DNA from: Georgenia sp. SYP-B2076
GTDB lineage: Bacteria > Actinomycetota > Actinomycetes > Actinomycetales > Actinomycetaceae
Assembly (NCBI RefSeq): GCF_003991205.1
Contig: NZ_RXOZ01000034.1
Coordinates: 124,001-188,000, forward strand
DNA: 64,000 bases
Direction: 5' to 3'
The notes under the pieces are model-generated. The model was not told the DNA's origin. It made no database searches and saw only the letters and a list, made by a program, of their open reading frames with translations. Numbering within the stretch: the first letter of the stretch is position 1; each line of letters opens with the position of its first letter. Below are positions 42,101-54,198 of the stretch, piece after piece. The position numbers and the translations under genes were made by a program.

Positions 42101-42910
42101 ATGGAAGCGCGAACCGCCCCGCAGCCCGCCTCGAACACCACGCGGCCGCACGAGGGCGCGCGCGGGCAGGACCGGCCCCCGGAGGCCCGGCTCCTGGTCG
42201 TGGACGACGAGCCCAGCATCCGGGAGCTGCTCTCCGCGTCCCTGCGCTTCGCCGGGTTCGAGGTGGTCACCGCCGAGGACGGCAACGCCGCGCTCCGCGC
42301 CGCGGCCGACCACCAGCCCGACCTGGTGGTCCTCGACGTCATGCTCCCGGACATGGACGGCTTCACCGTCCTGCGGCGCCTGCGCGCGCACGGCGACCCC
42401 ATCCCCGTCCTCTTCCTCACCGCCCGCGACGACATGACCGACAAGGTCCAGGGCCTCACCGTCGGCGGTGACGACTACGTCACCAAGCCCTTCAGCCTCG
42501 AGGAGGTCGTGGCCCGCATCCGCGCGGTGCTCCGCCGCACGCACCCCGAGGCGGAGGACGATGGCGCCGTGCTCCGCTACGCCGACCTCGAGCTCGACGA
42601 GGACGCCCACGAGGTCCGCCGCGCCGGGCGTCAGGTCGAGCTCTCCCCCACCGAGTTCAAGCTGCTGCGGTACCTCATGATCAACGCCGAGCGCGTCGTC
42701 TCCAAGGCGCAGATCCTCGACCACGTCTGGGACTACGACTTCGCCGGTGACGCCGCCATCGTCGAGTCCTACATCTCCTACCTGCGGCGCAAGGTCGACT
42801 CCGCGTCGGCGCTGGGCCTCGAGGGCACCCCGGAGGGTGAGGCGCTGAGCCCGCTGATCCACACCCGCCGCGGCGTCGGGTACGTGCTCCGGCAGCTTCC
42901 CACGCGCTGA
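42101..42910 (+). CDS. OmpR-type response regulator
   Basis: 269 residues. A receiver domain (residues ~30-145) has acidic pocket VVDDEP, phospho-acceptor Asp in LVVLDVMLPDMDG, LTARDD and YVTKPF. A winged-helix DNA-binding domain follows (residues ~165-265; LSPTEFKLLRYLMINAERVVSKAQIL, RGVGYVL). The N-terminal ~28 residues are disordered. The stop overlaps the kinase ATG by 1 nt (TGATG), giving tight coupling. Confidence 0.95.
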   Translation: MEARTAPQPASNTTRPHEGARGQDRPPEARLLVVDDEPSIRELLSASLRFAGFEVVTAEDGNAALRAAADHQPDLVVLDVMLPDMDGFTVLRRLRAHGDPIPVLFLTARDDMTDKVQGLTVGGDDYVTKPFSLEEVVARIRAVLRRTHPEAEDDGAVLRYADLELDEDAHEVRRAGRQVELSPTEFKLLRYLMINAERVVSKAQILDHVWDYDFAGDAAIVESYISYLRRKVDSASALGLEGTPEGEALSPLIHTRRGVGYVLRQLPTR

Positions 42911-44598
42911 TGCTGACACGGCTGCGACGGCGCTGGGGCGCGTTCCCCCTCAGCGTCCAGCTCGTCGCGATCCTCGCCGCGCTGCTGCTGCTTGGCCTGG
43001 CCACGGCGGGGACCACCACGCTGACCGTGCTGCGCGCGCACCTGGTCCACCAGCTCGACGACGAGCTGACCTCCAGCGCCCGCTCGCTCGGGCAGAACAC
43101 CGTCGACCAGCTCATGGCCGGGCGCAACGAGCAACCGGTGCTCCCGTCGGACTACTACGTCCGGGTCGAGGTCGACGGCAAGGTCGACCAGATCATCAAC
43201 CACCAGGCCGAGGAGCGGTTCGGGGTCCCCCGCGTCCCACGGCTCGACCTCGACGACCTCGACGACGAGCTCGAGCCGGTCACGCTCGACGGCGCGGGCA
43301 GCGCCGTGGACTGGCGCGCCGTGACGCTGCCCGTCAGCGCCGTCCGCGGCGGCCCGACGGTCGGCGCGGTCACGGTGGCCCTGCCGCTCGCCTCGGTCGA
43401 CCTGACGATCGCGCGCACCGGCCGGCTCCTCGTCCTCTCCGGTGCGGCCATCGCGGGCGTTGGCGCTTTGGCGGCGTGGTTCGCGGTGCGCCGGTCGCTA
43501 CGCCCGCTCCGCGAGATCGAGGCGACTGCGGGCGCGATCGCCGCCGGCGACCTCTCCCGCCGCGTCCCCACGCCCCCGCCGACGACGGAGGTCGGCTCCC
43601 TGGCCCGGTCGCTCAACGTCATGCTCGCCCAGATCGAGCAGTCCTTCGCCGCCCAGCAAGCCTCCGAGCAGCGCATGCGCCGCTTCGTCTCCGACGCCTC
43701 CCACGAGCTGCGCACCCCGCTGGCCACCATCCGCGGGTACGGCGAGCTCTACCGCATGGGCGGCGTCGAGCCCGACGGCGTGGGGCACGCCATGAGCCGC
43801 ATCGAGTCCGAGGCCAAGCGCATGGGCACGCTCGTGGAGGACCTCCTCCAGCTCGCCCGGCTCGACGAGGGACGCCCCCTGGACCTGCGCCCCGTCGACC
43901 TCACCGCGGTGGCCGCCGACGCCGTCGCCGACCTCCGCGCCGTGGCCCCGGGCCGTCCCGCGACCGTGGTGCCGCTCGCGGCCACCGGTGACGCCGGCGC
44001 CGACGCGACGGTCCCACCCGTGGTGGTCACGGCCGACGGGGACAAGATCCGCCAGGTGGTCGCCAACCTGGTGGGCAACGTCCTGCAGCACACCCCCGCA
44101 GGCACGCCGGTGGAGATCGCCGTCGGGCAGCCCGAACCGGAGTGGGCGCTGATCGAGGTCCGCGACCACGGTCCCGGGATCGCCGAGGATGACGCCCCGC
44201 GGGTCTTCGAGCGCTTCTTCCGAGTGGATCCCTCCCGCACTCGCAGCTCCGGCGGCTCGGGGCTGGGCCTGGCGATCGTCGCGGCCATCATGGGCGCCCA
44301 CCATGGCGGCGTGCGGGTGCTCCCCACGCCCGGCGGCGGCACGACGGTGCAGGTCGCCGCGCCGGTGGCCGGGCCGCCGCCCGCACCCGTGCCGGCGGGC
44401 GAGGGCGACGAGGCGCAGCCGGCGCCCGCCCACGACGGCGACGAGGCGCAGCCGGCGCCCGCGAGCACCACGCCGCGGGGCCGCTCCCCGCACGCGTCCC
44501 CGGCGGCGCACCCCAAAGGCGCCACCGCCGCCACGGCGGAGCAGGCTCCGCCCGCCGCCGAGCAGGCACCCCCCGCGGGCGTCGCTGACCGCCGCTGA
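42910..44598 (+). CDS. Sensor histidine kinase
   Basis: 562 residues. Membrane segments at ~residues 17-40 and ~170-195 flank an extracytoplasmic sensor of ~130 residues. A HAMP domain follows, then HisKA with SDASHELRTPLATIRGYGEL (phospho-His) and HATPase_c with NLVGNVLQHTP, RDHGPGI and SSGGSGLGLAIV. The last ~85 residues are a disordered Ala/Pro tail with a 13-residue repeat (GDEAQPAPA pattern). It is cognate to the response regulator directly upstream; no stimulus can be inferred. Confidence 0.94.
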   Translation: MLTRLRRRWGAFPLSVQLVAILAALLLLGLATAGTTTLTVLRAHLVHQLDDELTSSARSLGQNTVDQLMAGRNEQPVLPSDYYVRVEVDGKVDQIINHQAEERFGVPRVPRLDLDDLDDELEPVTLDGAGSAVDWRAVTLPVSAVRGGPTVGAVTVALPLASVDLTIARTGRLLVLSGAAIAGVGALAAWFAVRRSLRPLREIEATAGAIAAGDLSRRVPTPPPTTEVGSLARSLNVMLAQIEQSFAAQQASEQRMRRFVSDASHELRTPLATIRGYGELYRMGGVEPDGVGHAMSRIESEAKRMGTLVEDLLQLARLDEGRPLDLRPVDLTAVAADAVADLRAVAPGRPATVVPLAATGDAGADATVPPVVVTADGDKIRQVVANLVGNVLQHTPAGTPVEIAVGQPEPEWALIEVRDHGPGIAEDDAPRVFERFFRVDPSRTRSSGGSGLGLAIVAAIMGAHHGGVRVLPTPGGGTTVQVAAPVAGPPPAPVPAGEGDEAQPAPAHDGDEAQPAPASTTPRGRSPHASPAAHPKGATAATAEQAPPAAEQAPPAGVADRR

Positions 44599-44913
44599 CC
44601 GCCGCCGACGCCGCTGACCGCCACTGAAAGCCACTGAAGGCCGCCGTACCCCGCGCCCCATCGCCCCCGTGAGCGCGGCTGAACGCGGCCTCGACCCGCC
44701 GGAACCGCGTTTGCCCCACGACTGGGGCGGATGGCTACCAACGAGGCACGATCGGGGGCCCCATCGGTCACACCTGCCCCAGTCGTGGGGCAATCGGCTC
44801 ATTCCGTGCGTGCGACCGGGGCAGTCGCTCGATGCGCCAGTAGCGGCCCCCGGCGACAGACCGCGGGCGGGCGTGCGACCGGAGCCTGTGCCGGAGCCGC
44901 TACCGGTGCGCGC
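44599..44913. other. Convergent intergenic stretch with repeat element C
   Basis: 315 bp between the kinase and the leftward lipid operon. It starts with short degenerate GCTGACCGCC repeats, holds the 83-bp element at 44711-44793, and then a GCGTGCGACCGG direct repeat (about 44808 and 44870). No gene is seen. Confidence 0.55.
44711..44793. repeat. 83-bp inverted-repeat element, copy C (TTGCCCCAYGA family)
   Basis: The 18-bp perfect arms TTGCCCCACGACTGGGGC (44711-44728) and the complement (44776-44793) are the longest of the three copies. Total length matches copy A exactly. It lies between convergent genes. Confidence 0.8.
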
Positions 44914-46602
44914 TCACCACTCCCGGTGCGCCGGCAGCAGCGTCCCGGGGTTGAGGTTCCGCCCGGGGTCGACCGAGCGCAGCAGCCCGACCATGACGTC
45001 GGCGCCGGCGGCGGAGATGTCCTCCTCGAGCCAGCGGGCGTGGTCGGTGCCCACGCCGTGGTGGTGGGAGATCGTCGCGCCGGTGTCCATGAACGACTGC
45101 TGGACCGCGTTCTTGACCGCCCAGTAGTTCTCCAGCTGCGCATCCACGTCCGCGGTCCCGGGCGCGAACGCGAAGGTGAAGTACAGGCACGCGCCCGAGT
45201 GGTAGCTGTGCGAGAGGTGGCACATGACGAAGCCCTTGACCCCGAGCCGGGCGAACGCGTCCTGCGCGGCGCGGACCGTGCCGGTGTAGACGTCCATCAG
45301 CTTCGACCACGGCGCCGCGGTCTCGGAGACGTCGGCGAGGCCACCGATGTCGAGGAGGAAGTCGCGGATGTAGGGCGTGTCGAACTTCTTCTGGTCGTAC
45401 AGCGTGCCGGGGCCCTTGCCGAGCTTGATGCCGCCGTGCTTCTTGGCGATCTTGGCGACGATGGCCTTGTTGCGCCCCACGTGCTCGGCCCCGCCCTCGT
45501 ACCCGATGTAGGACAGGCACGCCGCGTCCAGGTCCCAGCCGCGGCGCCGCAGGACGTCGAAGAGCACCTTGGAGACCTTCCCAGAGATGCCCTTGCTCTT
45601 CTTCTGGGTGGACAGGGAGAACGCGGTCTCGTTGGCATCGGAGACCCGGGTGACGCTCGGCGCGGCGTCGGAGGTGGAGATCTCCTGCATGGCAGCCAGG
45701 CCGGCGGACCAGGTCGGGTAGAGGTAGGCGATGATCTCGCGGTGCTCCGGCAGGCGGTGCACGTTGACCCAGGCCTCGGTGACCACGCCCATGCGCCCCT
45801 CGGAGCCGAGGATCATCTCGCGCACGCTGGGCCCCGAGGACGTCGACGGCAGCGGCCGCAGGACGACGACCTTGCCGGGCTGGACGACGCGCAACCCGCG
45901 GGTGATGTCCGCGATGTCGCCGTACTTGTCCGACTGCATGCCCGAGGACCGGGTGGCGATCCACCCGCCGAGGGTGGAGTGACGGAAGCTGTCGGGCTGG
46001 TGGCCCATGGTCCAGCCGCGCGCGACGAGCTGCTCCTCCATGTCCGGGCCGAGCACGCCCGCCTGGATGCGGGCCAGGCCCGCGGCCTCGTCCACCTCGA
46101 GAACTCGGTTCATGCGCCCGAGGTCGAGGGAGACGACGGCGCGCTGCTCGTCGGGCGGCGGGGTCAGCGAGCCGGAGATGTTGGAGCCGCCCCCGAAGGG
46201 GATGAGCACGGCGTCGGCCGCGACGACGGCGTCGACGACCGCCCGCACCTGGTCCTCGTCGGCGGGGTAGACCACGACGTCGGGCACGCGCGGCAGGTCG
46301 CCGGCGCGCACCCGCACCAGGTCGGCGAGGCCCTTGCCGTAGGTGTGGACCACGCGGTCCATGTCGGCCTGGACCACGTGCTCGTCCCCGACGGCGGAGC
46401 GCAGCCGCTCGGCGAGCTCCTCGCCCAGGCGGGGGGCGGGCACGTCCAGGTCCTCGAACGACGGCGGCGGCGTGGCGGGCGCGCCGAGGTCGATGCCGAC
46501 CCGGTCCAGCACGAACGGTGCCATCTTGGGCTTGTCGCGGTAGTTGAAGGCGACGCCCTCGACGCCCCAGCCCCACCACTTCTGGTGCGAAACACCGTTC
46601 AC
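44914..46602 (-). CDS. Alkyldihydroxyacetonephosphate synthase-like FAD-binding oxidase
   Basis: 562 residues from GTG 46602 (AGGAGGA upstream). The match to eukaryotic AGPS runs through the whole chain: N-terminal KWWGWG, FAD-binding PFGGGSNISGSL, PDSFRHSTLGGWIATRSSGM, GSEGRMGVVTEAW, YIRDFLLDI, SETAAPWSK, the Tyr region SHSYHSGACLYFTFAF (catalytic Tyr in AGPS) and the His-rich loop SHHHGVG. AGPS exchanges the acyl chain of acyl-DHAP for a fatty alcohol, making the ether bond. It is the last gene of a four-gene coupled operon (GTGA overlap with the PlsC-type gene). Related D-lactate/glycolate-oxidase-like flavoproteins lack the KWWGWG and HHH signatures, so AGPS-like chemistry is the best inference. 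Confidence 0.9.
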   Translation of the reverse strand: MNGVSHQKWWGWGVEGVAFNYRDKPKMAPFVLDRVGIDLGAPATPPPSFEDLDVPAPRLGEELAERLRSAVGDEHVVQADMDRVVHTYGKGLADLVRVRAGDLPRVPDVVVYPADEDQVRAVVDAVVAADAVLIPFGGGSNISGSLTPPPDEQRAVVSLDLGRMNRVLEVDEAAGLARIQAGVLGPDMEEQLVARGWTMGHQPDSFRHSTLGGWIATRSSGMQSDKYGDIADITRGLRVVQPGKVVVLRPLPSTSSGPSVREMILGSEGRMGVVTEAWVNVHRLPEHREIIAYLYPTWSAGLAAMQEISTSDAAPSVTRVSDANETAFSLSTQKKSKGISGKVSKVLFDVLRRRGWDLDAACLSYIGYEGGAEHVGRNKAIVAKIAKKHGGIKLGKGPGTLYDQKKFDTPYIRDFLLDIGGLADVSETAAPWSKLMDVYTGTVRAAQDAFARLGVKGFVMCHLSHSYHSGACLYFTFAFAPGTADVDAQLENYWAVKNAVQQSFMDTGATISHHHGVGTDHARWLEEDISAAGADVMVGLLRSVDPGRNLNPGTLLPAHREW

Positions 46603-47333
46603 GAAGCTTCCTCCTGTGTGTGCTCGTCGGTCTGCGGTCGTGTGCCCGCCACGTTCCCGTCCCCGAGGACGTACGGCGTCTGCATGGTCAGCATGGTGCT
46701 GATCCGGGCGGCCACCCGGTCGCTGAACTCCCGGGGCTTCTCCCCCGGACGCGCCCGCATGGGCCGCCCGACCAGCATCGTCACGGGCGGGCGGCCGGGG
46801 ACGGGCCAGCTGCGTCCCACCGGCATCGCGTCGCGCGTGCCGAGCAGCGCGACGGGGATGCAGGGGACGTCGTGGTGGCAGCACAGGGCGGCCGCGCCAG
46901 GCTTGAAGTGCTGCATCTCGCCGTCGCGCGAGCGGGTGCCCTCGGGGAAGATCAGCACCGGCACGCCGGCCTCGAGGAGGCGGGAGGACATGCCCTTGCC
47001 CCGGCCCGCGCCGTCGCGGTGCACCGGGTAGGAGTTGAAGAACAGCGAGGTGGGGGCCTTGATCCACCACTGCTTGTAGAAGTAGTCGGCCGCGGCGGCG
47101 ACGGCGAGGTTCCCGGTCAGGCGCCGCGGCAGCTCGGTGACCATGACGGTGGCGTCGAGGTGGCTGGTGTGGTTGGCGACGACGACGAACGGCCCGGAGA
47201 CGCCCTCGACGTTGCGGGCACCCTCCACCCTGACCCGGGCCACCGAGTGGACGACCGACTTCAGGACGACGCGCTGGGCCACGAACCGGGCCCACCGGTG
47301 CCATCGCGCGTGGTAACGGCTCAGGCTCTGCAC
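46599..47333 (-). CDS. PlsC-type 1-acylglycerol-3-phosphate/DHAP acyltransferase
   Basis: 244 residues from GTG 47333, 6 nt after GGAGGTG; the GTG inside that Shine-Dalgarno (47342) is less likely. Acyltransferase block I is NHTSHLDATVM (NHx4D), block III FPEGTRSRDGEMQHFKPGA, and block IV VPCIPVAL. It acylates a glycerol-phosphate type acceptor with acyl-CoA or acyl-ACP. In this operon the acceptor may be DHAP (as in GNPAT) or 1-alkyl-glycerol-3-phosphate; sequence does not decide. It overlaps the AGPS-like gene by 4 nt and starts 6 nt after the upstream SDR stop. Confidence 0.88.
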   Translation of the reverse strand: MQSLSRYHARWHRWARFVAQRVVLKSVVHSVARVRVEGARNVEGVSGPFVVVANHTSHLDATVMVTELPRRLTGNLAVAAAADYFYKQWWIKAPTSLFFNSYPVHRDGAGRGKGMSSRLLEAGVPVLIFPEGTRSRDGEMQHFKPGAAALCCHHDVPCIPVALLGTRDAMPVGRSWPVPGRPPVTMLVGRPMRARPGEKPREFSDRVAARISTMLTMQTPYVLGDGNVAGTRPQTDEHTQEEAS

Positions 47334-47338
47334 GGCAC

Positions 47339-48166
47339 TCACCTCCGGCTCTTGTTCAGCAGGGCGGTGAACTGGCGTACCGCCGGCCGTGGCGCGTGCT
47401 CGGCGAGGAACGCCAGCACGGTGAAGCGTTTGGAGGGCACCGAGCGCACCCGCCCCTTCTCGACGTCGGCCAGGCAGTCCGCGACCACGCGGTCTGCCTC
47501 GAGCCACAGGGCGCCGGGGATGGAGCTGGCGCGGATGCCCGCCCGCTCGTGGAACTCCGTGCGCACCCAGCCGGGCAGCAGGGTCGTGACCCGCACGCCC
47601 GTCCCGGCGAGCTCGAGGGCGAGGCTCTCGGAGTACGTCCGCACCCAGGACTTGATGGCCGAGTACGCCCCCATGGGGATCAGCCCCGCCACGGACGAGA
47701 CGTTGATGATGACGCCGTGCCCGCGGGCCCGCATGGCCCGCCCGGCCGCGTTGCCCAGCAGCAGCACGGCGCGGACCATGAGCTCCAGGGCGTCCTCGTG
47801 CTCGGCCGTGTCCTCGGCGAGCAGCGGCGCGTGCACGCCCTTGCCGGCGTTGTTGACGAAGACCTCCACCGGGGAGGCCTCGTCCGCCAGCCGCGCGGCG
47901 ACGGCGGCCGCCCCCGCGCGGGCGGCGAGGTCGGCGGGCAGGGTCTCGACCTCGACGCCGTAGCGCCAGCGGAGCTGCTCGGCGGTCTTCCCCAGCCGCT
48001 CGGCGTCGCGGGCCACCAGGACGAGGTCGCAGCCACGCGCGGCGAGGGCGTGCGCGAAGGACAACCCGATCCCGGAGGTGCCGCCCGTGATCAGAGCACG
48101 GCCGCGGAGGACGGAGTCCGGGGACCCCGCCGCCCGCCCCGGGCGACCCTGCCCAACGTCGTTCAT
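47339..48166 (-). CDS. SDR oxidoreductase, candidate acyl/alkyl-DHAP or ketone reductase
   Basis: 275 residues. Classical SDR features: TGGTSGIGLSFAHALAARG, NNAGKG, NVSSVAG and the YxxxK pair in YSAIKSW. The C-terminal extension (GALWLEADRVVADCLADVEKG ... RRFTVLAFLAEHA type) resembles membrane-associated DltE/17-beta-HSD-like SDRs acting on lipids. In a pathway like the peroxisomal one this enzyme would reduce the keto group of acyl/alkyl-DHAP (inference). The ATG overlaps the stop of the upstream reductase gene (ATGA). Confidence 0.87.
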   Translation of the reverse strand: MNDVGQGRPGRAAGSPDSVLRGRALITGGTSGIGLSFAHALAARGCDLVLVARDAERLGKTAEQLRWRYGVEVETLPADLAARAGAAAVAARLADEASPVEVFVNNAGKGVHAPLLAEDTAEHEDALELMVRAVLLLGNAAGRAMRARGHGVIINVSSVAGLIPMGAYSAIKSWVRTYSESLALELAGTGVRVTTLLPGWVRTEFHERAGIRASSIPGALWLEADRVVADCLADVEKGRVRSVPSKRFTVLAFLAEHAPRPAVRQFTALLNKSRR

Positions 48167-50430
48167 GCGCGCCGCGCCCCCTTGATGCTCCGCAGGACCG
48201 GGGACAACCGCCCCTCGGCGGTCGTGGTCCAGCTGTGGACCGGCCACCGCCGTGCCTTGGCATAACGGTAGAGGCTAGCGTCCGGGTTGACCGCGTTGGG
48301 GTGGCCGACGACCTCCAGCCAGGACCGGTCGGCGTAGCTGTCGCCGTAGGCGAAGGACCGGGTCAGGTCCATCCCCTCCTCGCGGGCGTAGCGGCGCAGC
48401 CACGCGACCCGGGCCTCCCCCACCAGCGGCGACGCGGCCAGGTGACCGGTCCAGCGCCCCTGCGGGTCGGACTCCATCTTCCCGGCGACGATCACGTCGA
48501 AGAGCGGGGCGAGCGGCTCGACGAAGACGTCGATCTCACCGGTGAGCAGCACGGTGCGGTGCCCGGCCTCGTGATGGGCCCGGACCTGCTCCAGGGCCTC
48601 GCGCAGCAGGCCCCGGCGCAGCGAGGGCATGACCTTCTTGGTGACGACCTCGCGCAGCTCGGCCTCCTTCACCCCGGCGTAGCGGCGCATGAAGGTGCGG
48701 ATGAAGTCCCCGCGGTCGCGCATCTCCGCCTGGAGGTAGCGCGGCGCGAGCGCGACGAGGTTGGCGAGCGACCCGGGCCAGTGGCTGACGGGCTTGGCCG
48801 CGAGCTCGACCCACAGGTACTGCTCCACGAGGGTGGCAGCGGCGACGGTGCGCTGGAGGTCGAAGACCGCGAGGACGTCGCTGCGCCGCTCGAGCTCCTT
48901 GGGCGCGGCGGCCTCCGCCCCGCTGCCCTGGCTCCGCATGAGCCCGGGCACGCCCGGGATGTGGACCTCCTGGAGGTAGTGCCGCCAGTCGATCTCGGTG
49001 ACGTCGAAGCCGTGCAGGTCCTGGCGCTCGGCGGGCAGCGCGGCGTGCAGGGCGCGCAGGCGGGCGTCGTCGAAGATCACCTCGGTCTGGGTGTACGGCT
49101 GGTACAGGCCGGTGAACTTGCGCAGGGTGCGCAGATCCCGCCGGGCCTTGTACAGCCCGGAGATCCAGCCCCGGGTGCGGTCGTTGGCGGGCAGGCGGCC
49201 CACCGCCTTGTCGGCCAGGTCCACGACCCGCTCGCGGCGGGACAGCGCCCGCTCCACGGCGCCGGTGTGCGGGAACGACCAGGACGGCACCGCCACGTGG
49301 GCGCCCTCGGCGTCGGTCAGGGGGTGCGCCTTGAAGTACTCGCGCACCAGCCGGACGAGCCGGCCCACCGGCAGCGGGTTGGTGATGCTGGAGCAGACCT
49401 GGAAGAACTGCGCCTGCCCGGCCGGCGAGGGGGCGGCCGCGGCGGCGAGGATCGCGTTGACCACGAAGTCCACGGGGATGACGTCGAGCACCGTGTCCGC
49501 CAGCGCGGGGAACTCGGGCAGCAGGCCGCGACCGTAGGCGGCGATGAGCGGGTCGGCCACCTTGAACCCGTCGATCCAGCCGGGGTAGGGGTGCTTGAGC
49601 GCGGACTCGATGACGGTCGGGCGCACCACGGAGAGGCGGTGGCCGTTGCCGACCCACAGGTCCTCCGCGACGCGCTCCCCGAGCGCCTTGGTGAACGTGT
49701 AGACGTCGGTCCAGCCCAGGGTGTTGGCGCGGGTGCGGCCGGCCTCGATGAGCTCCTGGCGGACCCACTCCTGCCGGGCCTCCTCGGCGGCCTCCGACAC
49801 CGCGGCGGCGCCGGCGCGGCGGTGCTCCGACTGGGCGTCGGCGAGCAGCTTCCGCAGCACCGCGGGCCGGCGGGAGGCCGCCTCGGCCTCCGTGCGCGCG
49901 ACGAGGGCCTGGGTGAGCTCCAGCTCCCGGTCGACGTCGTGGTCGAGGGACCGCTCCTCGACGACGCCCTTGCGCAGGCCGGCGACGTAGCTGGTCGAGA
50001 CGTGCACGACGTGCGGGTCGGCGCCGGTCGCGAGCAGGGCCTCGTACAGCGAGATCGGGCCGCCGACGTTGGCCTGGAAGGCCTCGTCGATGGGCAGGTC
50101 GAAGGACACGGTGGACGCGGAGTGGATGACGACGTCGAGGTCCGTGGGCAGCGGCGGGAGCGCGCCGAGGTCCCCCGCCAGGACCGTGACCCGGTCGCGG
50201 AAGGCGGCTGTGGCGGCGTCGTCCCCGACGCGCGCGCGCCAGGTCTTGAAGACCGGCTTGCGCAGCAGCTTGTCGACGCGCATCTGCGCGGTGAGGTCAC
50301 CACGCGGGCGTACCAGCACGGTCACGCGGGTGGTGGGGTATGCGGAGAGCAGCTTCTCGAGGACGGCCTGACCGACGAAGCCGGTGGCGCCCGTGAGGAG
50401 CACATGTGCCCCGTCCAAGGGTTGTGACAT
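48163..50430 (-). CDS. Fatty acyl reductase (alcohol-forming type) fused to HAD-IB hydrolase domain
   Basis: 755 residues. N-terminal half (1-~470): extended-SDR/thioester-reductase NAD(P)-binding domain with TGATGFVGQAVLEKLL, STSYVAG and catalytic YxxxK in DVYTFTKALGE, as in alcohol-forming fatty acyl-CoA reductases, followed by a FAR-C-like segment. C-terminal half (~510-755): HAD-IB fold with motif I VLAVFDLQRTV, motif II TVLLTGEIDV, motif III Lys in VAGKMESD and motif IV FAYGDSYADRSWLEVVG. The usual D-x-D of motif I is D-L-Q, so hydrolase activity may be lost. It would supply long-chain alcohol to the AGPS-like enzyme (inference). ATG 50430 has TATTGT 7 nt upstream and no Shine-Dalgarno. 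Confidence 0.88.
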   Translation of the reverse strand: MSQPLDGAHVLLTGATGFVGQAVLEKLLSAYPTTRVTVLVRPRGDLTAQMRVDKLLRKPVFKTWRARVGDDAATAAFRDRVTVLAGDLGALPPLPTDLDVVIHSASTVSFDLPIDEAFQANVGGPISLYEALLATGADPHVVHVSTSYVAGLRKGVVEERSLDHDVDRELELTQALVARTEAEAASRRPAVLRKLLADAQSEHRRAGAAAVSEAAEEARQEWVRQELIEAGRTRANTLGWTDVYTFTKALGERVAEDLWVGNGHRLSVVRPTVIESALKHPYPGWIDGFKVADPLIAAYGRGLLPEFPALADTVLDVIPVDFVVNAILAAAAAPSPAGQAQFFQVCSSITNPLPVGRLVRLVREYFKAHPLTDAEGAHVAVPSWSFPHTGAVERALSRRERVVDLADKAVGRLPANDRTRGWISGLYKARRDLRTLRKFTGLYQPYTQTEVIFDDARLRALHAALPAERQDLHGFDVTEIDWRHYLQEVHIPGVPGLMRSQGSGAEAAAPKELERRSDVLAVFDLQRTVAAATLVEQYLWVELAAKPVSHWPGSLANLVALAPRYLQAEMRDRGDFIRTFMRRYAGVKEAELREVVTKKVMPSLRRGLLREALEQVRAHHEAGHRTVLLTGEIDVFVEPLAPLFDVIVAGKMESDPQGRWTGHLAASPLVGEARVAWLRRYAREEGMDLTRSFAYGDSYADRSWLEVVGHPNAVNPDASLYRYAKARRWPVHSWTTTAEGRLSPVLRSIKGARRA

Positions 50431-50443: not shown

Positions 50444-50951
50444 CCGGTGGTCAGGGCAGCGGCTCCGCACCGTCCCGCGCCGCTCCCCCGGCGCCCCCGG
50501 GTCGGGGACCCGGGCGCGTGCGCCGGGCCGGGTGCGCGGGCGAACGCGGGGTCGTCCGCGCCAGGCGCGTGGGCAGCAGGCCGAGGTCGACGTCGGCCGC
50601 CCGCGGGCCGCTCATGTCGCGCGTGGGCGAACACGACGACGCCGGCCGCGCCGTCGTTGACGTGGGTGCGCGAACGCGTGCATGGCGTCCTGGCCGGATG
50701 CCGGCGCCCCGGCTGCGGCGCTCGCGGGGCGCCCCCGCTTGGCCGGCGCGTCCCGGACGTCGGCGGGGCCACCTCACCCCCCGGTGGCCGGCGCGCGGCG
50801 GCCGGGTACGGGGGTGCGGACGAGGTGCCGATAGGGGCGTCAGGGGCTGTTCGCCGCCGGTTGTCGCTGTGGATAAGCATGCCGGCGGGGCCGTTCAGGA
50901 GCACACTGAGTGAGACCCGCCACCGCAGACGTTGGCAGTCCAGGCCGGAGC

Positions 50952-50979
50952 TTGCTCTGCTGCGGAAGCGGTCTACGAT
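50952..50979 (+). promoter_or_regulatory. Candidate promoter of HD-superfamily gene
   Basis: TTGCTC (50952-50957), 16-nt spacer, TACGAT (50974-50979), 35 bp before the ATG at 51015. That ATG has its own Shine-Dalgarno (AAGGGAA). Confidence 0.45.
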
Positions 50980-51014
50980 CGCTCTGCTCTTACTTCCGTC
51001 AAGGGAACAGATCC

Positions 51015-52511
51015 ATGGGCGTCTCTGACGTACCTCAATGGCTCACCGCCGCATTCACCCGCAGCGCACTCGCCGTCGGCGCTACCGCACCCCGCGAGCA
51101 GATCGAGGAGACCTTCCACCGGCTCCTGCAGCGCTGGCACGACCCGGACCGTCACTTCCACAACGTCCGTCACGTCATCGACGTCCTCGCCCGGGTCGAC
51201 GAGCTCGCCGAGGAGACCCACCACCCGGACATCGTCCGGCTGGCGGCCTGGTACCACGGCGCGGTGTTCAACTCGACCATCCGCCAGGTCTACTCGCGCA
51301 GCGGCGGTGAGGACGAGGTCGCCTCGGCACAGCTCGCGCGGGAGGAGCTCGGCGCCCTCGGGGTCCCCGAGAAGGTGCTCGACCGGGTCACCGACCTCAT
51401 CCTCAACCTCAAGCGTCACGACGCGAACCCGCGCGACATCGACTCCCTGGCGCTGTGCGACGCCGACCTTGCCGTCCTGGCCTCGGACCCCCAGCGTTAC
51501 CGGGCCTACCGGAAGGCGGTCCGGGAGGAGTACGCGCACATCCCCACGCGCCACTACCTCGAGGCCCGCATCGCCATCGCCACCAAGCTGCTCGCCCGTC
51601 GGCACCTGTTCCTCAGCCCCATGGGCGCGCAGTGGGAGGACGCGGCCCGGGAGAACCTGCGCGCCGAGCTCGACCGCCTCCGCGTGGACCTCGCCGCGCT
51701 GGGCGAGTGCGCCCCCGGCGAGTCCGTCACGGAGGCGGAGGCAGCACTCGACCCGAGCGGCGCCCACGGTGACCGGCGGCCGGCGGCGGTGCCCGCCCCC
51801 GACGCCCGGCGCGCCGCCGAGGGGGTCAGCGTCTTCGCGCCCTCGCCCGCCATCCCGATGCCCCCCACGTCCGCGGCCAGCCCGTACGCGACCCCGTCCA
51901 CACCCGACTCCGCCGCCCGGGCGGTCCGGACCCCGCTGGCCCCGCCCGACGCCGCCCGCGTCGCGACCGCCGCCCCCACTCCCGGCAGGGAGGGCTCTCG
52001 CGCGACCGCGCCGAGCCCGGCGGAGGCGGGCCGCGAGCTGGGCGGGCCCGAGACGCGCCGCCCGGTCCAGGCCCGGACGTCCTCGCTCGAGTCCTCCCCC
52101 GAGGACCTGGGCGCTGCGCCGCGTCGTGCGGCCGGCGAGGGGCAGCCCGACCGCGAGGAGGTCGCCCGCAGCTCGCGCGAGCTCGTAGACCTCGCCGTGC
52201 GCGAGGGACGCGAGCGGGCCGAGCGGGAGCGCGGCCAGCGCGAGCGCCTCGAGCTCGCACGCGCCGAGCGGGACCGCGGCCAGCGCGAGCCCGTGGAGCC
52301 CGCACGCACCGGCTCTCCGACGCCGGAGCACCGCCGGCCCGCGCGGCAGCCGTGGCTGGCCGACGTCCCCACCGGCCTCGCCGCCACGGGCGCGCCGGAC
52401 GCGGCGGTCGAGCCCGAGCGTGCGGAGGCGCTGCCGCACCACGGCATGGAGCGGGAGCCGGACCTCTTCGACCGTCCAGCACGACGCCGCCGCGAGAAGA
52501 AGGTCCGCTAA
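51015..52511 (+). CDS. HD-superfamily phosphohydrolase-like protein with long disordered tail
   Basis: 498 residues. Residues ~1-215 match the predicted metal-dependent HD-superfamily (COG4339-type): LLQRWHDPDRHFHNVRHVIDVLARV, RLAAWYHGAVFN, LALCDADLAVLASDPQRYRAYRKAVREEYAHIP. The paralogue encoded at 53266 has WFHDSVYDG where this protein has WYHGAVFN, so the metal-binding Asp of the HD pair is Gly here. The remaining ~280 residues are Ala/Pro-rich and then Arg/Glu-rich with ~11-residue repeats (RERLELARAERDRGQ). Activity may be lost or altered. Confidence 0.8.
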   Translation: MGVSDVPQWLTAAFTRSALAVGATAPREQIEETFHRLLQRWHDPDRHFHNVRHVIDVLARVDELAEETHHPDIVRLAAWYHGAVFNSTIRQVYSRSGGEDEVASAQLAREELGALGVPEKVLDRVTDLILNLKRHDANPRDIDSLALCDADLAVLASDPQRYRAYRKAVREEYAHIPTRHYLEARIAIATKLLARRHLFLSPMGAQWEDAARENLRAELDRLRVDLAALGECAPGESVTEAEAALDPSGAHGDRRPAAVPAPDARRAAEGVSVFAPSPAIPMPPTSAASPYATPSTPDSAARAVRTPLAPPDAARVATAAPTPGREGSRATAPSPAEAGRELGGPETRRPVQARTSSLESSPEDLGAAPRRAAGEGQPDREEVARSSRELVDLAVREGRERAERERGQRERLELARAERDRGQREPVEPARTGSPTPEHRRPARQPWLADVPTGLAATGAPDAAVEPERAEALPHHGMEREPDLFDRPARRRREKKVR

Positions 52512-52936
52512 CCCACCCCATCAGCGCTGACCGGTCAAGTCCTCGCACCTCCCCAACAGCGGTGACCGGTCAAGTCCTCGCACCTCCCCAACAGCGGTGA
52601 CCGGTCAAGTCCTCGCACCTCCCAACGCTGACCGGTCAAGTCCTCGCACCCCGCCCGCGGCCGGCCACCTGCGCGCGACGGGTCGATCCCGTGCCCCGGA
52701 TTGTCCTTCCGTGCCGTCGGCACGCCGGGCCGGCCGCCGATTGTCCCGCCGGGTCGCCAACACCTCGTCACGCCGGCCGCCCGGTCAGCCCGGTCAGCCC
52801 GCCACGCCATCCCGTCCACAGGCGCGCGTCCTGCCGCATCGCCCACAGCGGGGACGCCGCCCGCGCCGGCCGGTGACGTGGTTCTCTAACGTCGCCCCTG
52901 ACCGCGCCGCCGTGGCGCGGCACGAGGGAGGAAGCC
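52512..52936 (+). other. 425-bp gene-free stretch beginning with a tandem array
   Basis: The first 140 bp carry the four-copy 35-bp repeat. The rest contains a GATTGTCC direct repeat and a GTGCCGTCGGCAC palindrome, with no gene. A TAACGT near 52887 may be the -10 of the WXG100 gene. Confidence 0.55.
52530..52651. repeat. 35-bp tandem array of the GGTCAAGTNCTC motif, four copies
   Basis: GACCGGTCAAGTCCTCGCAC begins at 52530, 52565, 52600 and 52631. The first two intervals are exactly 35 bp and the last is 31 bp. The whole unit is conserved, including the interval, so this is not a spacer-bearing CRISPR. It starts 18 bp after the HD-superfamily gene. Confidence 0.85.
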
Positions 52937-53227
52937 ATGGCCAGGTTCCAGGTCGACAGCGCGGAGGTGGCGCACGCCGCCGCGCAAACCCGTATGACCA
53001 CGAGCACCATCCGCGCCGAGGTCACGGCGATGATGAATCACCTCGTGCAGCTGCAGGGCAGCTGGACCGGATCGGCGTCAGCGGCGTTCTCCACCTGCGC
53101 GGACCAGTGGCGCAGCACCCAGGCGCAGGTCGAGGCGACGCTCGAGCAGATCACGCTGGCGCTCGACACGGCTTCGCGCACCTACGCCGACGCCGAGACG
53201 AACGCCCAGGGGCTGTTCGCACGCTGA
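52937..53227 (+). CDS. WXG100 (ESAT-6-like) protein
   Basis: 96 residues, the exact size class of the family, all-helical, with the central turn QGSWTGSASAAF (W-x-G) at residues ~41-43. GAGGAAG precedes the ATG. WXG100 proteins are secreted by type VII systems or are fold relatives. No EccC/EssC ATPase or partner is encoded in this window, so secretion is unproven. It lies between two related HD-superfamily genes on the same strand. Confidence 0.9.
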   Translation: MARFQVDSAEVAHAAAQTRMTTSTIRAEVTAMMNHLVQLQGSWTGSASAAFSTCADQWRSTQAQVEATLEQITLALDTASRTYADAETNAQGLFAR

Positions 53228-53253
53228 CCGGGCCGTGCCGAACCCGGGGAACG

Positions 53254-53259
53254 TACGAT
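53254..53259 (+). promoter_or_regulatory. Candidate -10 element, leaderless DUF4031-HD gene
   Basis: TACGAT lies 6 nt before GTG 53266. No Shine-Dalgarno at useful spacing. Confidence 0.45.
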
Positions 53260-53265
53260 CGCGGC

Positions 53266-54198
53266 GTGGCCATCCTCGTCGACCCGCCCCGGTGGCCTGC
53301 GCACGGCACCGTCTGGGCGCACCTCGTCTCGGACACCTCGCTCGACGAGCTGCATGCGTTCGCACGGGCCAACGGCGTGCCGTTGCGTGCCTTCGACCTC
53401 GACCACTACGACGTCCCGGCGGAGCGGATCCCCGAGCTGGTGGCCTCGGGAGCTTTCGCGGTGGACGGCCGCGAGCTGCTGGTGCGCCTCCGCGCGTCGG
53501 GCCTGCGCGTGCGGGGCGCCGACCGGCCCGCCGAGCAGACGCGCCGCCGGCGCGCCAACCTGGTCCGCCGGTGGGACGAGATCGAGCACGACGGCGCCCC
53601 GCCCGGCGCGTGGCGCGCGCTCGGTGAGGAGCTGCTCGCACGCTGGGAGGAGCCACACCGCCGGTACCACGACGTCGCGCATCTCGCGGACGTGCTCTGG
53701 AACCTCGACATGCTGGCCGAGGACGGTGAGGAGGTGCGTCGCGCCGTCGTGCTCGCGGCCTGGTTCCACGACTCCGTCTACGACGGCGTGCCGGGCACGG
53801 ACGAGGAACGCTCGGCCGCCCTGGCCGGCAGGGCGCTCGCGGATGCTGGACTGCCGAGGCCCGAGGTGGCCGAGGTGTCACGACTGGTGCTGCTGACCGC
53901 CACGCACGCCCCGGCATCGGCGGACCGTGCCGGGGCGGCGCTGTGCGACGCCGATCTCGGCGTCCTCGGGGCCCCTCCCCCCAGGTACGCCGCGTACGCC
54001 GCGGCCGTCCGCCAGGAGTACGCCCATGTCGCGGACGACGACTTCCGCCGCGGCCGGGCCGCGGTGCTGCGCGCGCTGCTCGGGCACGTGCCGCTGTACG
54101 CCACGGCCGCCGGCCGCGAGCGCTGGGAGTCCCGGGCCAGGGAGAACGTCGCCGCCGAGCTCGCCGCGCTGGGCGGCGCCGGCCGCGCCGCCGGGTGA
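53266..54198 (+). CDS. DUF4031 domain fused to HD-superfamily phosphohydrolase
   Basis: 310 residues. N-terminal DUF4031 (residues 1-~85: ILVDPPRWPAHGTVWAHLVSD ... FDLDHYDVPAERI) is followed by an HD-superfamily domain (~110-305) with LLARWEEPHRRYHDVAHLADVL, the intact HD pair in LAAWFHDSVYDG, and LCDADLGVLG. It is a paralogue of the HD-like protein encoded at 51015 across this domain. The C-terminus and stop codon lie within a 47-bp tandem repeat. Function of DUF4031 is unknown; a phosphohydrolase reaction is a family-based guess. Confidence 0.82.
   Translation: MAILVDPPRWPAHGTVWAHLVSDTSLDELHAFARANGVPLRAFDLDHYDVPAERIPELVASGAFAVDGRELLVRLRASGLRVRGADRPAEQTRRRRANLVRRWDEIEHDGAPPGAWRALGEELLARWEEPHRRYHDVAHLADVLWNLDMLAEDGEEVRRAVVLAAWFHDSVYDGVPGTDEERSAALAGRALADAGLPRPEVAEVSRLVLLTATHAPASADRAGAALCDADLGVLGAPPPRYAAYAAAVRQEYAHVADDDFRRGRAAVLRALLGHVPLYATAAGRERWESRARENVAAELAALGGAGRAAG

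Follow-up and report, generated by a model that had tools for sequence, protein, structure and literature searches.

Four adjoining minus-strand genes of Georgenia sp. SYP-B2076 probably encode the committed part of an ether-lipid pathway that is aerobic and of animal type, in which 1-O-alkyl phospholipids are reached through acyl-dihydroxyacetone phosphate (acyl-DHAP) and a flavoprotein of the AGPS family. The genes occupy positions 44914-50430 of the window, by which we mean the whole 64,000-nucleotide stretch of DNA that was analysed; it lies within contig C34 of an assembly of 4.28 Mb that is 99.8% complete. Georgenia is a high-GC actinobacterium that grows aerobically. Read as open reading frames (ORFs) in the direction of transcription, the genes encode, almost without gaps, a fatty acyl reductase fused to a HAD domain (FAR-HAD), a short-chain dehydrogenase/reductase (SDR), a PlsC-type acyltransferase and the AGPS-family flavoprotein. 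The proposal is based on this gene order, on protein family membership, on kept catalytic positions, on a predicted AGPS fold and on co-inheritance. From these we infer the individual reactions in Georgenia, the identity of the chain, the end product and the roles of the PlsC-type protein, the SDR and the HAD domain.

The original prediction described a coupled four-gene operon, and in this it was accurate except for one spacing. The stop codon of FAR-HAD (755 amino acids, 48163-50430) overlaps the start of the SDR gene (275 amino acids, 47339-48166) in an ATGA at 48163-48166, and the stop of the PlsC-type gene (244 amino acids, 46599-47333) overlaps the GTG start of AGPS (562 amino acids, 44914-46602) in a GTGA at 46599-46602. 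The gap between SDR and PlsC is 5 nucleotides rather than the 6 given. The most likely PlsC start is the GTG at 47333, which lies 8 nucleotides past a ribosome-binding-site-like GGAGG (47342-47346, minus strand) and 5 nucleotides past the SDR stop; an alternative GTG at 47342 would overlap that stop. The four gene types named in the prediction are supported by Pfam and by matches in the PDB.

An AGPS-family flavoprotein

Pfam assigns the flavoprotein an FAD_binding_4 domain (9.8e-34) and an FAD-oxidase_C domain (3.2e-33). Its best sequence matches in the PDB are 2uuu (1.9e-107), which we take to be Dictyostelium AGPS, and 4bby (3.2e-84), presumably guinea pig AGPS and titled 'mammalian' AGPS; after these comes the D-lactate dehydrogenase family at 3.3e-18. 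A 33-row profile searched against the PDB returned the same three at 2e-185, 3.7e-145 and 1e-47, respectively. The predicted model of the protein has a pLDDT of 90.7, and the structural comparison with the PDB places AGPS chains at Foldseek ranks 1-37 (E-values 3.0e-48 to 1.3e-42), with TM-scores to these 37 chains of 0.76-0.90 by query and 0.84-0.91 by target, followed by LDHD at 2.6e-29. A tree of 87 rows separates 80 AGPS rows, of which two are eukaryotic, from seven FAD-oxidase paralogues (support 98), and 64 rows that include the window's protein form one clade (support 100); long branches lead to the eukaryotic and outgroup rows, which leaves their exact places unsure. NCBIfam returned GlcD and other FAD-oxidase models alone, all below cut-off. 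A grouping with 2-hydroxyacid oxidases and a loss of AGPS geometry would have refuted the original prediction, and neither was found by sequence, profile, tree or predicted fold. On the PDB matches, profile, tree and predicted fold we reject a 2-hydroxyacid oxidase. By its sequence and its predicted model the flavoprotein is an AGPS-family protein, and it would be expected to have alkyl-DHAP synthase activity.

Arg515, Tyr578 and His615-617 of 4bby, which we take to be catalytic residues of mammalian AGPS, align with R413, Y474 and H513-515 of the window's protein, and these positions are invariant across 33 aligned bacterial rows. The active site probably includes H201, R413, Y474 and H513-H515. 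The motifs KWWGWG, SHSYHSGAC and HHHGVG that had been picked out from the sequence are all present, and the 33-row profile pairs the KWWGWG near the N-terminus with MKWNGWG of 4bby. The catalytic tyrosine, previously located in SHSYHSGAC, has to be moved. Because PDB entry 4bca is titled Tyr578Phe and Tyr578 aligns with Y474, the catalytic role goes to the tyrosine of GACLYF. Y467, in SHSYHSGAC, corresponds to Tyr571 and is ruled out. Both tyrosines are invariant in the 33 aligned bacterial rows.

Conservation, linkage and possible transfer

Two surveys address how the genes travel together. The named loci are the best 80 of the 549 relatives listed and favour close relatives; 61 of the 80 have at least 7.9 kb of upstream sequence, and 26 of the genomes behind them were chosen by hand for whole-genome searches. 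The class survey covers 394 genomes and was scored on at most three AGPS, six di-iron (a protein described below) and two FAR candidates per genome, its counts being lower bounds. The two sets overlap: L033 lies in G001, and L088, L042 and L065 are G034, G218 and G266. We call an AGPS window-type when it scores over 850 bits; the next best score in the class genomes is 551. The Fisher tests of co-occurrence given here and below ignore the relatedness of the genomes.

All eight Georgenia congeners (L125-L132) carry these four genes in an identical order. Since the set also recurs across Actinomycetota, it is not a chance assembly. Among 16 further genomes of the same family, four have window-type AGPS (L133-L136): three keep this order with all genes co-directional, and in the fourth FAR is divergent with a di-iron gene beside it. 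Across the class, an AGPS-like protein was found at 1e-60 in 208 genomes, 37 with the window type and the remaining 171 scoring under 560 bits, and FAR-HAD was found at 1e-60 in 76. FAR-HAD is present in 33 of the 37 genomes with window-type AGPS and in 43 of the 357 others (Fisher 1e-22), and the two genes lie within 6 kb of each other in 22 of the 33 genomes having both. Within the 26 chosen genomes, 25 have window-type AGPS and 24 of these 25 have FAR-HAD. Many genomes that lack window-type AGPS likewise have a FAR-HAD, about 43-50% identical to that of the window.

Within 6 kb of AGPS, the 80 named loci contain SDR in 57 cases, PlsC in 58 and FAR in 43. The combinations are di-iron, FAR, SDR and PlsC (23 loci), FAR, SDR and PlsC (14), SDR and PlsC (14), FAR and SDR (4), PlsC only (7), SDR only (2), FAR only (2) and none (14). 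Among the named carriers are Microbacteriaceae, Brevibacterium, Brachybacterium, Kocuria, Phytoactinopolyspora and Occultella, and AGPS adjoins PlsC or FAR in single loci of Acidobacteriota, Verrucomicrobiota and Gemmatimonadota. L024, L108 and L143 have a distant type of AGPS (about 35% identical), and no cluster genes were found near it in these loci.

The distribution also suggests that the operon has moved horizontally between families. In another family (f35), twelve genomes of genus g78 have FAR-HAD and AGPS the same distance apart. Two of the g78 loci, L137 and L138, contain the co-directional operon, with 74-80% identity to the window for FAR, SDR and AGPS and 53-58% for PlsC, and their AGPS proteins fall among the Georgenia rows (10-row set, support 95), their exact place there being weak (support 64). 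Other f35 AGPS rows, L141 and L042 (Phytoactinopolyspora limicola), group elsewhere in the tree. Monophyly of the four f35 rows was rejected (p-AU 1e-12), the group having been chosen for this test after the tree was seen. Because the f35 rows form no clade, horizontal transfer is suggested. A locus filed as Mycobacterium simulans (L034, 1784-5734) has SDR, PlsC and AGPS 55-72% identical to the window's and then a HAD-like stretch; it is either a transfer or a contaminating contig.

Partner enzymes, proposed route and rival readings

The first gene product carries both domains and the motifs of alcohol-forming fatty acyl reductases. Pfam finds NAD_binding_4 (2.5e-46), Sterile (2e-9) and HAD (4e-29), the closest solved structure is the fatty acyl-CoA reductase 7eoz (1.1e-52), and the GxxGxxG and YxxxK motifs are kept in 42 of 42 aligned rows. 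The C-terminal HAD-IB domain is encoded at about 48313-48870. Its motif I reads DLQ in the window, so that the first aspartate is kept and the DxD of HAD phosphatases is lacking; the three Georgenia rows have Q in place of the second aspartate, and of the 42 FAR-HAD rows 13 have D there, while 24 have E, 4 have Q and 1 has H. The second aspartate is the usual acid/base of HAD phosphatases. Because it is replaced here and in 29 of 42 rows, we do not claim the domain as a phosphatase; the motif I survey weakens an ordinary phosphatase as a candidate.

The SDR matches adh_short (2.6e-38) and has intact TGGTSGIG, NNAG and YSAIK motifs. Its best NCBIfam model is mycolate reductase at 161 bits against a cut-off of 380, and it is a candidate reductase of acyl/alkyl-DHAP. 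The PlsC-type protein matches Acyltransferase PF01553 (3e-21), has intact NHTSHLD and FPEGTRS motifs, and is matched in NCBIfam by PlsC/AGPAT-type models below cut-off. It could acylate DHAP or the sn-2 position.

We propose that FAR reduces acyl-CoA or acyl-acyl carrier protein (acyl-ACP) to a fatty alcohol, whose chain is probably anteiso-C15, judged from the fatty acids of relatives. The PlsC-type enzyme would produce 1-acyl-DHAP, AGPS would swap the acyl chain for the fatty alcohol to give 1-O-alkyl-DHAP, and the SDR would reduce this to 1-O-alkyl-glycerol-3-phosphate (alkyl-G3P). Housekeeping enzymes could then acylate the sn-2 position and complete 1-O-alkyl (plasmanyl) phospholipids. 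Relatives with the di-iron protein may go on to desaturate the chain and make a plasmalogen, the lipid type that dimethylacetals (DMA) indicate on methanolysis; no copy of that protein was detected in this Georgenia.

Compared with the mammalian peroxisomal pathway (FAR1, GNPAT, AGPS and PexRAP), the operon shares the fold and active site of AGPS, a NAD_binding_4/Sterile FAR, an SDR and an acyltransferase with PF01553, presumably also the domain of GNPAT. It differs in being a single bacterial operon, in the fusion of FAR to HAD and in having a PlsC-type protein in place of GNPAT; the SDR is likened to PexRAP as a member of the SDR family. With the operon come bacterial relatives of enzymes involved in human disease, and by its AGPS the proposed pathway looks closer to that of animals than does the main myxobacterial route (ElbD).

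Several bacterial systems bear comparison. In the available passages on Myxococcus xanthus (PMC9131029), the operon MXAN_1676-1674 encodes AGPS, a FAR-GNPAT fusion and a NAD-dependent epimerase, and has a minor role in ether-lipid synthesis. As in Georgenia, an aerobic bacterium here has AGPS, FAR and an acyltransferase together in a single operon, but those passages describe the acyltransferase as fused to FAR and describe no HAD domain, whereas Georgenia has FAR-HAD, a separate PlsC and a classical SDR. The same passages give the main role to the elb operon. Its elbA-E genes share with our operon a FAR-like domain, an acyltransferase domain, a HAD protein (elbB) and NAD-dependent enzymes; no AGPS is named among them there, and ElbD is a single multidomain protein with acyl-CoA synthetase and ACP. 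The anaerobic PlsA/PlsR (Ger) reductases also make bacterial ether lipids. According to the portion of PMC9702350 available, they act on diacyl lipids and not via DHAP, unlike the proposed Georgenia route, and occur in some actinobacterial orders.

The reading that survives best beside the proposed one has the PlsC-type protein acting as the sn-2 acyltransferase for alkyl-G3P, with another enzyme of the genome acylating DHAP. It is a serious possibility, although we lean against it. The PlsC/AGPAT-type models that match below cut-off agree with it, and four further PF01553 loci in the genome could provide acyl-DHAP. On the other hand, PlsC lies upstream of AGPS on the same strand and within 1.5 kb in 56 of the 80 named loci, and adjoins it also in loci of Acidobacteriota and Verrucomicrobiota and in some loci without FAR and SDR; such abutment fits a DHAP acyltransferase making the AGPS substrate, and DHAP is the acceptor we favour. 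The adjacency is no more than suggestive, as SDR is nearby about as often (57 versus 58 of the 80).

The end product might instead be a neutral or glyco-lipid, such as an alkylglycerol, an alkyl-diacylglycerol, a glycolipid or a lipoteichoic-acid anchor, with the HAD domain dephosphorylating alkyl-G3P. A HAD-IB domain fused to the reductase invites this reading, as do the HAD gene elbB of the myxobacterial operon and the neutral ether lipid TG-1 of M. xanthus, both from the passages available in PMC9131029, and a HAD domain with DxD in motif I (13 of 42 rows) could be a phosphatase. The second aspartate is Gln in this Georgenia, and 29 of 42 rows have Glu, Gln or His at that place; we therefore regard such an end product as rather unlikely here.

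It is very improbable that the operon serves to make fatty alcohols or wax esters, with the flavoprotein oxidising a 2-hydroxyacid or an alcohol and no ether being formed: FAR alone does occur in wax-ester pathways, 43 of the 76 FAR-HAD genomes lack window-type AGPS and NCBIfam's sub-threshold models are of the FAD-oxidase kind, but the flavoprotein goes with AGPS by sequence and predicted fold as well as by active-site positions and tree, and Pfam finds no wax-synthase domain in the four operon proteins.

Several points weigh against the acyl-DHAP/AGPS pathway itself. AGPS and FAR-HAD are unlinked in 11 of the 33 class genomes having both, where contig breaks in draft genomes may be responsible, and 4 of the 37 genomes with window-type AGPS gave no FAR-HAD match. 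Other cluster genes are absent near AGPS in 14 of the 80 named loci, some of them very short, and within about 8 kb of the AGPS of Frankia QA3 and of Actinoplanes. No recognisable GNPAT was found, the PlsC-type protein matching PF01553 and PlsC/AGPAT-like models alone, and the second aspartate of HAD motif I is missing as described. The available passages report that loss of the AGPS homologue MXAN_1676 cut the ether lipids of M. xanthus only slightly (PMC9131029) and that elbD homologues in Pontiella are not accompanied by detected ether lipids (PMC11868695). In the parts seen of papers on the cluster-bearing genera Herbiconiux, Brachybacterium and Kocuria no DMA is named, and lipid data for Georgenia, this strain included, were not found in the papers looked into among those pairing Georgenia with lipid terms. 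The original prediction spoke of a complete ether-lipid pathway. Its AGPS-based core stands; 'complete' was too strong a word, given the missing GNPAT, an SDR specificity drawn from family membership and motifs, and the Gln in HAD motif I.

Lipid phenotypes, a di-iron protein in relatives and the flanks

Aerobic bacterial ether lipids had been thought to be known mainly from myxobacteria. That view is too narrow, as plasmalogen-type DMA have been reported in aerobic actinobacteria, in passages that name no responsible genes (PMC5945732, PMC7472656). According to these, Kineococcus rubinsiae B12T contains 2.9% anteiso-C15:0 DMA by gas chromatography-mass spectrometry, a result its authors termed surprising, and the routine MIDI system fails to recognise DMA and misnames it a hydroxy acid (PMC7472656). 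Four Subtercola species have 17.0, 13.3, 11.9 and 6.9% iso-C16:0 DMA, with low amounts in Agreia and none in Frondihabitans (PMC5945732). K. rubinsiae B12 has window-type AGPS at L060 and, on another contig (L157, 6400-9505) away from AGPS, FAR-HAD followed by its own PlsC-type gene. Subtercola belongs to a family with many cluster carriers, a link by family membership. The operon may help to explain the plasmalogen-type lipids of some aerobic actinobacteria.

The original prediction knew of no described actinobacterial pathway with this gene order. We found no description of an actinobacterial AGPS operon, or of its link to DMA, in the open-licence literature searched (most subscription papers and all bioRxiv preprints lie outside it). 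The phenotype and the single gene do have precedents: the available part of PMC11868695 places AGPS homologues in many phyla, Actinobacteria metagenome bins included. The kind of pathway is thus known, whereas the actinobacterial operon, the FAR-HAD fusion, the apparent spread as a unit and the possible plasmalogen link are, as far as our searches show, undescribed. The genes of the operon are candidates for ether-lipid synthesis in aerobic bacteria, and their carriers are culturable.

Conversion of the operon's product to a plasmalogen would be the step of the plasmanyl desaturase CarF/TMEM189 (PEDS1). A search for CarF/TMEM189 gave no match in the window's genome (the control was matched in a single genome and scored below cut-off there, which leaves absence unproven), and none in the 26 chosen genomes (no control matched; absence again not proven). 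An unannotated gene of about 264 codons lies near FAR-HAD in 23 of the 80 named loci, and a paralogue of it in 24. The two stand together beside FAR-HAD in L042, L043, L045-L047, L050, L051, L053, L056, L059, L062 and L063, and further in L070, L075, L089, L090, L093 and others. In Occultella (L053) the six genes are all co-directional and the two copies are 37% identical. Pfam, run on five proteins of both kinds, matched three to acyl-ACP desaturase or rubrerythrin at or below cut-off and two to nothing. A di-iron ligand pattern of E45, E76/E77 with H80, E141, and E171 with H174 is invariant in 21 rows; the consensus of the paralogue, for which 18 sequences were extracted and aligned, has lost the first ExxH histidine and has K in place of the last glutamate. 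The protein's model (pLDDT 86.2) predicts an acyl-ACP-desaturase-like fold: acyl-ACP desaturases are the top structural matches (7t63, 5e-4), followed by R2-type proteins, with just two matches under 0.001 and DesA2 at a TM-score of 0.62 by target length (E-value 0.011). The natural guess is a desaturase that depends on oxygen and works on either the fatty alcohol or the ether chain, and the pair could form a heterodimer of an active subunit and one without the full metal site.

The di-iron protein was found at 1e-20 in 40 of the 394 class genomes, 34 of which also have FAR-HAD (Fisher 6e-22) and 21 window-type AGPS (2e-14). The twelve g78 genomes have it at a distance from AGPS, and G. satyanarayanai (L040) has one copy elsewhere in its genome. 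It gave no match in the genome of L033 (Georgenia sp. EYE_87), and none in the window's genome, whether searched directly at E <= 10 or in the class survey; with CarF also unmatched, a plasmanyl desaturase for a plasmalogen pathway was not found in this Georgenia.

We put forward only tentatively, and with some doubt, that many aerobic actinobacteria have a six-gene plasmalogen pathway ending in a ferritin-like di-iron plasmanyl desaturase with its metal-site-deficient paralogue, which replace CarF/TMEM189, and that the Georgenia window holds a plasmanyl-only version. If true, the di-iron desaturase would explain the branched DMA of aerobic actinobacteria such as Subtercola and supply a candidate for an unknown desaturase. 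As the one plasmalogen desaturase, however, it is weakened by K. rubinsiae B12, where DMA were measured and neither it nor CarF was matched (the CarF search had no working control), and by a second Kineococcus without a match. The AGPS/FAR part fits the Kineococcus phenotype; as for the di-iron part, this organism either manages without it or has something else in its place. Another desaturase beside AGPS or FAR-HAD was sought in the two Kineococcus and rejected by comparing conserved ORFs, a partial test in which Pfam was run on FAR-HAD and the next gene only.

Judged by their neighbours, the four genes seem to be transcribed as a separate unit. The upstream ORF at 50910-52511 (plus strand) points away from the operon, and the downstream histidine-kinase gene at 42910-44598 is convergent with it. 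Between the 3' end of the operon and this gene, at 44712-44792 (no strand assigned), lie two palindromic hairpins about 63 bases apart, TGCCCCACGACTGGGGC and, inverted, TGCCCCAGTCGTGGGGC, with no further copies in the window when up to one mismatch is allowed. They are a possible transcription stop for both convergent units. A scan found no T-run terminators and no sigma-70 promoters, and Rfam gave no match anywhere in the window. The adjacent plus-strand ORFs at 50910-52511 (no Pfam match) and 52597-54198 (DUF4031) contain similar HD-like stretches, HFHNVRHVIDVL and RYHDVAHLADVL.

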